Origin: an uncultured Eubacteriales bacterium
Lineage (GTDB): Bacteria; Bacillota; Clostridia; Oscillospirales; Oscillospiraceae
DNA length: 34,117 nucleotides
Direction of reading: 5' to 3'
Assembly: GCA_949283375.1 (NCBI GenBank)
Contig: CASDSM010000037.1
Location: forward strand, 1 to 34,117
The notes under the pieces were generated by a model, which was not told where the DNA came from, made no database searches, and saw nothing but the letters and a program-made list of their open reading frames with translations. Each line of letters starts with the position of its first letter. The stretch's first letter is position 1. The translations under genes were made by a program, and so were the position numbers. Below, one piece after another: positions 887 through 27,958 of this stretch.

Positions 887-1150
887 CCCCCAGTCCCACG
901 GGACTGGGGGCGAGGCTGTCAAAAAAGTGTTTTTGACAGCCTTTCCAAGCAAATGCAAGCATTTGCTTGGAGTTTGCAGTCCTCCCACGCGCACGGATTT
1001 TTGTTCCAAAAATCCGTACACTCGTCGGACTATCAGTATTTTTCGGCCGGTACATGCCCGTCCGAAAAATAATTTGCAATCTATTTGGCCCTTCGGGCCA
1101 AACTCGGTGAGACCTTTTTTGTCACTCTGCCACAGTTCTACGGAACTGGG
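887..1150 (+). repeat. Structured dispersed repeat, copy 1 (five stem-loops)
   Basis: This fills the 386-bp gap between the EIIA gene and nagE. The core contains five hairpins: 914-925/930-941, 945-955/960-970, 993-1003/1007-1017, 1038-1046/1062-1070 and 1084-1091/1095-1102. A second copy lies at 25671-25967; the right halves differ at only a few positions. Two similar hairpins flank the core, at 887-910 (loop CACG) and at about 1130-1150 (loop TACG); they match each other but not the flanks of copy 2. The core ends are weak inverted repeats with an A/T run (909-927 against the complement of 1113-1131). A further hairpin lies just left, 862-869/879-886. No ribosome binding site or plausible protein was seen. 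Mobile element or leader regulator cannot be decided from this window. Confidence 0.8.
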
Positions 1151-1226
1151 GGCGCACAGTAGATATCACACAGGAAGCATTTGCCCCGAAGGAGAGGCGG
1201 GGCGGAAAAGAAAGGAGATAACCCCT

Positions 1227-25561: not shown

Positions 25562-25670
25562 GTATCGCATGCCACAGGAAAATCCCGGCGAATCCGGGAG
25601 AAGGGGGAAATTCTTTTCTTTCCACCTGCGGCGGTGTATAATATCCTCAGAAGGCCCCAACCGAACCATC

Positions 25671-25967
25671 CGCCGGAGACCTGCCGGCGCGAGGCTGTCA
25701 AAAAAGTATTTTTGACAGCCTTTCGAGCAAATGCAAGCATTTGCTCGAGTTTGCAGTCCTCCCATACCCCAAGGGCACTTTGTCGCCGCCGCTGGCAGCT
25801 CGGGCGCGCGCACGGATTTTTGTTCCAAAAATCCGCACACTCGTCGGACTATCAGTATTTTTCGGCCGGTACACGCCCGTCCGAAAAATAAATTGCACTC
25901 TATTTGGCCCTGCGGGCCAAACTCAGTGAGACTTTTTTAACACTCTGCCGCCGGACCTCTGCCGGCG
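25671..25967 (+). repeat. Structured dispersed repeat, copy 2
   Basis: Second copy of the element at 887-1150, in the same orientation, between the divergent spoIIAA and fbp. It has the same five stem-loops; the second one is CGAGC...GCTCG where copy 1 has CCAAGC...GCTTGG, so both arms changed together. The fifth differs only in its loop. It carries about 38 extra bases (around 25766-25804) not in copy 1. Its flanks are CGCCGG/CCGGCG hairpins at 25671-25689 and 25949-25967, nearly identical to each other and unrelated to the flanks of copy 1. It ends 20 bp before the fbp start codon, so fbp mRNA starting upstream would carry it. A TATAAT at 25637-25642 with a poor -35 is the only promoter-like signal in front. 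Confidence 0.8.
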
Positions 25968-25987
25968 CTTTCCAGAAAGGAGCCGCC

Positions 25988-27958
25988 ATGCATCAGAACA
26001 GTCAGCCGCCGCGCCATCTGCAGCTGCTCTCCGAGCGGTATCCCACCGCTGCTGCCGCCGCGAGCGAGATCATCCGCATCGAGGCCCTGCTGCGCCTGCC
26101 CAAGGGGACGGAGCACTTTATGAGCGACCTCCACGGCGAGCACGAGGCGTTCGTGCACATCCTCAACAGCGCCTCCGGCGTGATCCGGGAGAAGATCGAC
26201 ATCGTCTTCCCCGCCCTGCCGGAGCGCGAGCGGGCGGAGCTGGCCACCCTGGTCTACTACCCCGCCGAGAAGCTCCCCACCCTCAAGGCAGGGCAGGCAG
26301 ACCTCCCCGCCTGGTACCGTGAGACGCTGCTGCGGCTCATCGAGCTGTGCCGCTTTGTCTCGAGCAAGCACACCCGCGCGCATGTGCGCCGCTGGCTGCC
26401 GGAGGACTGCGGGTATATCCTCGATGAGCTGCTGCACGCCCACTTCGAGGACCACGACAAGAACCTCTACTACGGCCAGATCATCGAGAGCATCCTCCGC
26501 TGCGGCCGGGCGGACGCCTATATCCTCCGCCTGTGCGCGCTCATCAAGCGTCTGGCGGTGGACTGGCTGCACATCGTCGGGGACATCTTTGACCGGGGCG
26601 CGCGGCCTGACCTCATTCTGGACGGGCTGATGGCCCACCACCACGCTGACCTCCAGTGGGGCAACCACGACGTGGTCTGGATGGGCGCGGCGGCAGGCAG
26701 TCCGCTGTGCGTGATGACGGTGCTCAAGACCACCCTCGCCTACGGCAACCTCGACCTGCTCGAGCGCGGCTACGGCATCAGCCTGCGGCCGCTGGAGCAC
26801 TTCGCCCGGGCGGTCTACGGCGCGGACGACGTGACGCGCTGGCTGCCGCGCGGCGACGTGGCAGAGGACTTCACCGGCGACCGGACCGCCGTGGGCCAAA
26901 TGCACAAGGCGGTCTCCATCCTCATGTTCAAGCTGGAGACGGAGGTGATGGACCGCAACCCCGACTTCCGCCTCGAAGGGCGGGACTATCTGCGCCAAAT
27001 CGACTATGCGCGCGGGACGGTGCGCTGCGGCGGGCGGGAACATCCCCTGCTCGACTGCGCCTTCCCTACCGTGGACCCGGCGGACCCCGCCGCCCTCACC
27101 GAGGGGGAGCGGCAGGTGCTCGAGGCGCTCGTGCGCTCCTTCCGGGAAAGCGAGCGGTTGCAGCGGCATGCGCGCTTCCTCTACTCACACGGGGCGTTTT
27201 ACAAGATCTGCAACGGCAACCTCCTCTATCACGGGGCGGTGCCGATGACGGAGGCGGGCGAGCTGGCGGAGATCACCTTCCAGGGCAAAGCCCGGTCGGG
27301 CAAGGCCCTCTTTGACTACTGCGACCGCCGTGCCCGGCAGGGCTACTTCGCCCCGGAGGGCAGTCCGGAGCGTCAGGCGGGGCAGGACTTCCTCTGGTAT
27401 CTGTGGTGCGGGGCGCTCTCCCCCCTCTTCGGGCGCAGCGCGATGACCACCTTTGAGCGGCTCTATCTCGCAGACCCCGCCACCCACACCGAGCGCAAGG
27501 ACCCCTATTACCGCCACATCGCCCGCCCGGAGACCGCGCTCGCCATCCTGCACGCCTTCGGCCTGGAGGGTGAGGGCTGCCACATCGTGAACGGACATGT
27601 CCCCGTCCGCGCCGTGGAGGGGGAGAGCCCGGTCAAGGGCGGCGGGCGGCTGATCGTGATCGACGGCGGCTTCTGCCGCGCCTACCACAGCAAGACCGGC
27701 ATCGCAGGCTATACGCTGGTGTACAACTCGCGCGGGCTGGTCCTGCGCACCCATCAGCCGTTCGAGGGGCTGGAGCAGGCGATTTGGCAGGACGGGGACA
27801 TCGCCAGCCAGAGCGACTATATCTACACCGCCCCGCGCCGCCTGCTGGTCGGAGACACCGACGAGGGCGCAGAGCGCCGGAGGCTGATCGAAGACCTCTC
27901 CGCGCTGGCCGAGGCCTACCGGAGCGGGCAGCTGCCGGAGCGCGGCATCTCCCTCTGA
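25988..27958 (+). CDS. fbp: Fructose-1,6-bisphosphatase, class III
   Basis: Dephosphorylates fructose-1,6-bisphosphate to fructose-6-phosphate in gluconeogenesis. The 656 residues match the large Firmicute-type FBPase (Bacillus Fbp about 670). Metallophosphatase motifs are visible: SDLHGE (Asp47, His49), VGDIFDRG, QWGNHDVVWMGA and, near the C-terminus, VNGHVPVR. The ATG at 25988 has AAAGGAG just upstream; the longer frame from 25904 is repeat DNA. With PEPCK in the same window it covers two control points of gluconeogenesis. The structured repeat in its leader may affect expression. Confidence 0.95.
   Translation: MHQNSQPPRHLQLLSERYPTAAAAASEIIRIEALLRLPKGTEHFMSDLHGEHEAFVHILNSASGVIREKIDIVFPALPERERAELATLVYYPAEKLPTLKAGQADLPAWYRETLLRLIELCRFVSSKHTRAHVRRWLPEDCGYILDELLHAHFEDHDKNLYYGQIIESILRCGRADAYILRLCALIKRLAVDWLHIVGDIFDRGARPDLILDGLMAHHHADLQWGNHDVVWMGAAAGSPLCVMTVLKTTLAYGNLDLLERGYGISLRPLEHFARAVYGADDVTRWLPRGDVAEDFTGDRTAVGQMHKAVSILMFKLETEVMDRNPDFRLEGRDYLRQIDYARGTVRCGGREHPLLDCAFPTVDPADPAALTEGERQVLEALVRSFRESERLQRHARFLYSHGAFYKICNGNLLYHGAVPMTEAGELAEITFQGKARSGKALFDYCDRRARQGYFAPEGSPERQAGQDFLWYLWCGALSPLFGRSAMTTFERLYLADPATHTERKDPYYRHIARPETALAILHAFGLEGEGCHIVNGHVPVRAVEGESPVKGGGRLIVIDGGFCRAYHSKTGIAGYTLVYNSRGLVLRTHQPFEGLEQAIWQDGDIASQSDYIYTAPRRLLVGDTDEGAERRRLIEDLSALAEAYRSGQLPERGISL

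Follow-up and report, generated by a model that had tools for sequence, protein, structure and literature searches.

A five-hairpin non-coding MITE lies between whole duplicated stem-loops and is very probably moved by an IS1182-family transposase

The five-hairpin repeat found in the window (the whole stretch of DNA analysed, 34,117 nucleotides) is a non-coding miniature inverted-repeat transposable element (MITE), here called MITE-1, and not a named RNA. The repeat family, its ends, the duplication of whole hairpins around its copies, and one insertion nested inside another were all observed, as were IS1182-family elements whose ends and duplications are similar. Very probably, MITE-1 is non-autonomous and depends on an IS1182-family DDE transposase, acting in trans, that duplicates the whole target stem-loop.

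Results

MITE-1 in the window and in its own genome

The two copies in the window, a short form of 218 nt and a long form of 257 nt, and their flanking duplications are listed below.

888..911, + strand: left target-site duplication of copy 1, stem-loop CAGTCC/GGGACTG, a 24-nt match to 1130-1153
912..1129, + strand: MITE-1 copy 1, between PTS EIIA (352-840) and PTS EIIBC (1227-2726), neighbours assigned by Pfam
914..941, + strand: stem 1, left terminal repeat with its own inverted copy; 12 pairs, 98.7% of cells paired
945..970, + strand: stem 2, variants CCAAGC.. / CGAGC.. / CGCGC.. / CGCACA..; both-side changes in 3/12 pairs
978..1031, + strand: stem 3, outer arms AGTCC/GGACT around an inner hairpin (995-1015); both-side changes in 5/8 outer and 5/9 inner pairs
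1038..1070, + strand: stem 4, ATTTTTCGGCCGG/CCGTCCGAAAAAT, in other copies GGCCCGG/CCGTGCC; both-side changes in 4/13 pairs
1084..1102, + strand: stem 5, TTTGGCCC/GGGCCAAA; 100% of cells paired, both-side changes in 4/8 pairs
1130..1153, + strand: right target-site duplication of copy 1, match to 888-911
25670..25690, + strand: left target-site duplication (stem-loop) of copy 2, a 21-nt match to 25948-25968
25691..25947, + strand: MITE-1 copy 2, upstream of the Firmicute-type fructose-1,6-bisphosphatase (fbp) gene (25988-27958; Pfam PF06874)
25948..25968, + strand: right target-site duplication (stem-loop) of copy 2, match to 25670-25690

Folded as single-stranded DNA, both copies were far more stable than dinucleotide shuffles (copy 1, z = -11.25, 0/200 shuffles equal; copy 2, z = -9.36, 0/100 equal). 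The initial annotation had reported two structured repeats at these places, with differences between the copies in stems 2 and 5, and all of this was borne out. The bounds that it gave, 887-1150 and 25671-25967, located the repeats correctly and took in the outermost stem-loops, which are target-site duplications specific to each locus; the element proper is confined to 912-1129 and 25691-25947. Its count of two has to be revised, as the own genome (2.4 Mb, 43 contigs) holds 15 MITE-1 copies that cover at least 200 of the 220 query positions, together with fragments.

The length of MITE-1 ranged from 203 to 305 nt among 39 measured copies. The surplus of about 40 nt in copy 2 relative to copy 1 sits ahead of stem 3, and other long copies (L016, L020, and L021) have a further insert within the loop of stem 4, differences that would reflect the gain or loss of modules. 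The family ends read GAGGCTGTCAAAAAA and CAG(A/C)(G/C)TGTCAAAAAA; copy 1 begins with GAGGCTGTCAAAAAA and its right end, read inward, is CAGAGTGACAAAAAA. MITE-1 is thus short, multicopy, and gene-free and carries terminal inverted repeats, as MITEs do.

Two side observations concern single places. A TATAAT-like box was seen by eye at 25637-25642, just upstream of copy 2, so this copy may be in the fbp leader. Furthermore, solo hairpins of about 31-34 nt consist of two terminal repeats back to back with no interior (L066:1910-1940, L067:1763-1794, L070 from 2031, and, on the reverse complement, L151:2424-2454). By eye, the flanks matched in none of these four, which may be minimal elements or excision scars.

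Whole stem-loops are duplicated around MITE copies

A second family, MITE-2, is about 160 nt long and has an interior unlike that of MITE-1, with the same kind of ends and the same hairpin duplications. Searches with nhmmer returned 117 MITE-1 and 18 MITE-2 matches in the collected loci, many of them one place found twice. Filtering for copies in which both ends could be recognised and each flank measured 60 nt or more, and removing identical places, left 52 copies (39 MITE-1 and 13 MITE-2); this set is part of all copies in the genomes, and its MITE-2 loci come from among the end-pattern matches listed.

Near-full copies have a hairpin on either side; as a rule the two are the same, and their sequence changes from locus to locus. 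A duplication scoring at least 10 was found around 41 of the 52 copies, versus 2 of 655 mispaired left and right flanks. The duplicated stem-loops of these 41 copies were 21-41 nt long, and the edges of the duplication fell 0-2 nt from the foot of the hairpin in 40 of them, judged on the better-paired of the two hairpin copies; the exception was L088. The extent of the duplication therefore follows the hairpin, and the outermost hairpins are host DNA duplicated as a target site, not part of the element. At copy 1, the duplicated hairpins differ at 4 of 24 positions, two of which are both sides of one pair (C-G to T-A). Four further copies (L129, L139, L057, and L061) were flanked by short exact duplications of 6-9 nt that form no hairpin, possibly a fallback mode of the same transposase, and comparison of the flanks revealed no duplication at the remaining 7 of 52.

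A nested case was found at locus L087 (G000:C31), where a MITE-2 interrupts stem 5 of MITE-1 and the same 21-nt hairpin, unchanged, flanks it on both sides. Removal of MITE-2 and one copy of the hairpin restores an uninterrupted MITE-1. The terminal repeats at C38:8571 and C38:11542 were considered as bounds of an autonomous element and rejected, the first being part of a MITE-2 copy and the second giving a match to neither MITE.

IS1182-family elements share the ends and the duplications

The partner insertion sequence (IS) was traced through the end pattern, a remnant, and a protein search. The own genome contains this IS remnant, shortened by deletion, which has ends of the MITE type; its left end, CAGCCTGTCAAAAAACC, stands directly after a hairpin, and a Pfam search of the remnant fragment gave no match. 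Searches of the own draft assembly with PF13751 and NF033551 turned up no intact IS1182 transposase, and we infer the mobilising enzyme from relatives. One such relative is L099, from genome G030 of the own genus, which encodes an intact transposase of 476 aa. This protein scored 381 bits against NF033551 (IS1182 family; cut-off 270) and exceeded the cut-offs of PF13751, PF05598, and PF01609, and it thereby combines NF033551 with the DUF772 and DDE domains that mark the family. The left end of L099, CAGCCTGTCAAAAAAGTCC, adjoins a hairpin, the element starting with CAGCCTGTCAAAAAAG immediately after it, and its right end falls at a contig end. MITE-1 and L099 gave no match to each other by nhmmer. 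As a side observation, a hairpin, CCCCGGTTTTC/GAAAACCGGGG, lies just inside the right end of the IS (L099; L076, ~2405-2450), to be compared with stem 1 just inside the left end of MITE-1.

NF033551 was matched at E ≤ 1e-20 in 5 of 32 genomes of the genus, three of them above the cut-off. Relatives of the transposase occurred at E ≤ 1e-60 in 12 of 295 genomes of the order and at E ≤ 1e-80 in 16 of 398 genomes of a phylum sample. Intact elements with MITE-like ends, candidate partners of the MITEs, are present in the own genus (L099) and in other genera.

Hairpin duplications were found at 30 of 48 IS1182-family loci with MITE-like ends, in the order and across the phylum. The genus and order set of 20 IS loci showed the pair of end motifs in 14 and a hairpin duplication of 20-35 nt in 10, identical on both sides in 9. 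Four of the 28 loci in a second set were too short; among the other 24, identical hairpin duplications of 17-35 nt flanked 20, including L181 and L190, whose transposase reading frames are interrupted by stops. The ends in the second set were picked for the best duplication among candidate end pairs, and a control that repeated this choice for the 24 evaluable loci with right flanks from other loci gave 0 of 120 at a score of at least 15 (maximum 9). One genome carries five equal IS copies (1526 bp, equal match score), four of which have perfect hairpin duplications that differ among the copies; the fifth has unlike hairpins at its two ends.

Hairpin duplications were missing at 18 of the 48 loci, nine of which are partial or near a contig end (at L159, the interval searched did not fit). 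At L147, L158, L179, and L196, a different hairpin was seen by eye to abut each end of the IS, as if two inserted copies had recombined. The other five fall outside both groups; among them is L148, a more distant IS beside which a duplication of about 6 bp was read by eye.

MITE-1 matches in the searched genomes fall within one genus

Of 59 genomes searched (the own genome, 31 others of the genus, 4 of the family, and 23 of the order), 11 gave a MITE-1 match at E ≤ 0.01, every one within the own genus (1 of 28 genera). Near-full matches at an identity of at least 86% were confined to the own genome and G010, which has many at 86-91%. Diverged copies with 67-74% identity occur in G003 and G019, and in several of the seven remaining matching genomes the similarity spans just 30-50 nt. 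Moreover, the exact stem-4 pattern was present in 33 stretches of a named collection, possibly one without the own genome: 30 from Candidatus Onthomonas avicola and one each from three further MAG assemblies. The initial annotation had named a lack of copies elsewhere as the outcome that would count against it; copies were found both in the own genome and in relatives of the genus.

Covariation of the internal stems is best explained at the DNA level

Covariation was assessed in 26 full-length short-form copies (62 pairs in six helices, 1509 cells), where 93.8% of cells held standard pairs. Both sides had changed in 23 of the 62 pairs, with all six helices represented, compared with 9.1 ± 1.7 after shuffling (0/500 as high) and 1-5 for structures slid along the alignment; kinship alone can let sequences beat such shuffles, and the slid-structure control is clear. 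One of five covariation measures, the number of further pair types, did not exceed the shuffles (31 versus 29.7; 146/500). The initial annotation's view of the repeat as non-coding and structured, with changes that respect pairing, is upheld by these counts, which are the opposite of the stem-ignoring substitutions that it had set as a test.

Host hairpins outside the element offered a comparison. The two hairpins of a duplication, which presumably started out identical, were compared base by base for 36 of the 41 duplications, the five with a length difference being omitted. They differed at 35 of 858 paired versus 28 of 224 unpaired positions, and among 29 differing pairs, 4 (in three copies) were Watson-Crick double changes and 23 were one-sided. 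Palindromes outside the element thus also tend to stay matched, though most changes are uncompensated, and selection on terminators could explain part of this result. For the internal hairpins, the preferred reading is that they are palindromes whose arms are held matched at the DNA level, either by template-switch correction during replication or by selection on DNA. RNA function is not needed for their covariation, because G-U pairs are nearly absent and host hairpins also show some compensated changes.

Between these two routes, purifying selection on the DNA hairpin, for example as a transposase substrate or landing site, rather than mutational correction of palindromes, is a tentative possibility that would be compatible with MITE-1 being a MITE. 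Stem 5 did serve as a landing site in the nested insertion, and the structure is maintained in two G003 copies that are 67-74% identical (L032 and L051). Against such selection, transposition is expected to need the ends only, and MITE-2 makes the same insertions with another interior. The concerted multi-base change that lengthened stem 5 in L018 is also what template switching would produce.

Far less probable is a structured regulatory or small RNA that spread over the genome with its fold under selection. Covariation in six of six helices and the very stable fold would suit such an RNA, as would the position of copy 2 between the TATAAT-like box, noted by eye, and the fbp gene. However, RNA helices are expected to show wobble pairs, and these were nearly absent from both strands: among 1509 cells on the + strand there were 6 G-T and 17 A-C, the latter corresponding to G-U in the opposite strand, beside 76 other mismatches. 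The 52 copies had no consistent orientation relative to neighbouring genes as called by a crude ORF caller; they act as insertions with duplicated targets, and the adjoining host hairpins have some compensated changes of their own. No Rfam family matched the window at gathering thresholds, and a relaxed search of 850-1200 alone gave one chance-level match (E = 0.81). The selection on a folded RNA or single-stranded DNA suggested by the initial annotation is accordingly unsupported for RNA, while matching at the DNA level is among the favoured readings; as for its remark that it knew no named family, the terminal repeats, target duplications, and partner transposase point to an IS1182-type MITE. 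Palindromes of REP/BIME type, assembled as a mosaic and mobilised by a RAYT (IS200-type) transposase, would also yield intergenic arrays. This reading is hardly credible, however, because the ends resemble DDE IS1182 ends and the target duplications are long; HUH/RAYT transposition is not known to leave any.

Discussion

Proposed mechanism of insertion

In the model that we favour for MITE-1 as an IS1182-type MITE, the particular transposase that moved it, the extruded intermediate, and the strand chemistry are inferred. The transposase would bind ends of about 12-16 bp, CAGNSTGTCRAAAAA by eye. Its target would be a pre-existing stem-loop, such as a gene-end terminator, probably extruded as a hairpin or cruciform. 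Strand transfer by the DDE transposase would attach the element's 3′ ends to a target phosphate at each of the two 5′ feet of the stem-loop, and gap repair would then copy the entire stem-loop, giving an element flanked by two copies of the target hairpin. Having a hairpin on both flanks may keep the host terminator in place and protect the element from read-through.

A fixed duplication length is typical of most DDE transposases. A clade of the IS1182 family, in contrast, likely sets this length by the secondary structure of the target: where a hairpin is extruded, it would act at the two feet and duplicate the whole (17-41 nt here), and where none is present, it would fall back on 6-9 nt. 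The hairpins carried by MITEs of such elements could themselves become landing sites, and every insertion would leave a hairpin at both sides, so that the host terminator need not be lost. Because the duplication length tracks the target hairpin over dozens of insertions, structure-guided DNA integration becomes directly testable. Terminator-like hairpins beside IS1182-type transposases gain another reading, and covariation within a repeat does not necessarily indicate a functional RNA.

Comparison with known systems

ISfinder gives direct repeats of 0-60 for IS1182, so its curators may know of repeats such as these. Targeting of stem-loops by the IS1182 family is already published, and Siguier et al. 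are cited for the targeting of palindromes by some members (PMC5678879, PMC4923244). In the portion of the literature covered, which did not extend to the Siguier et al. reviews of 2014 and 2015, duplication of a whole stem-loop was not found as an observed outcome and appeared only as hypothetical pathway b of a model (PMC5678879).

According to the available text of a summary of the family, IS1182-type transposases can duplicate the target, delete it, or do neither, and are able to recognise the structure of target DNA; that text does not describe the duplicated target as a whole hairpin (PMC12056078). Other members are listed, in the parts consulted, with 4-nt repeats (PMC3281130, PMC3196728), so hairpin duplication is not family-wide. 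Like the present elements, ISCbo5 of the IS1182 family inserts into gene-end hairpins (PMC3098183). The excerpts on ISCbo5 and ISBma2 mention a "surrounding hairpin" without describing it as a duplication (PMC3098183, PMC2965389), and terminators upstream of transposases such as that of ISBma2 were taken there as intrinsic to the IS (PMC2965389).

Set beside them by their descriptions, MITEPye1 (PMC11578231) and the ISMac2 MITEs (PMC3852290) resemble MITE-1 in being short, with IS1182-type ends and no transposase. They differ in their repeats: a table for the ISMac2 MITEs gives 26/4 and 25/0, which we read as inverted and direct repeat lengths (PMC3852290), and the passages on MITEPye1 report direct repeats with no mention of a hairpin (PMC11578231).

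A further parallel is with IS1272 and TnSha1 of staphylococci, likewise IS1182-family elements whose transposase targets stem-loops, often terminators, without sequence consensus (PMC5678879, PMC4923244). As described in the sections available, these elements replace or partly delete the stem-loop and leave no target duplication (PMC5678879, PMC4923244). The IS1272-type outcome, a stem-loop lost and no duplication made, was not the pattern here, where a stem-loop stands at both sides of 41 of 52 MITE copies and 30 of 48 IS loci: the stem-loop that is replaced or partly lost in those systems is duplicated in its entirety.
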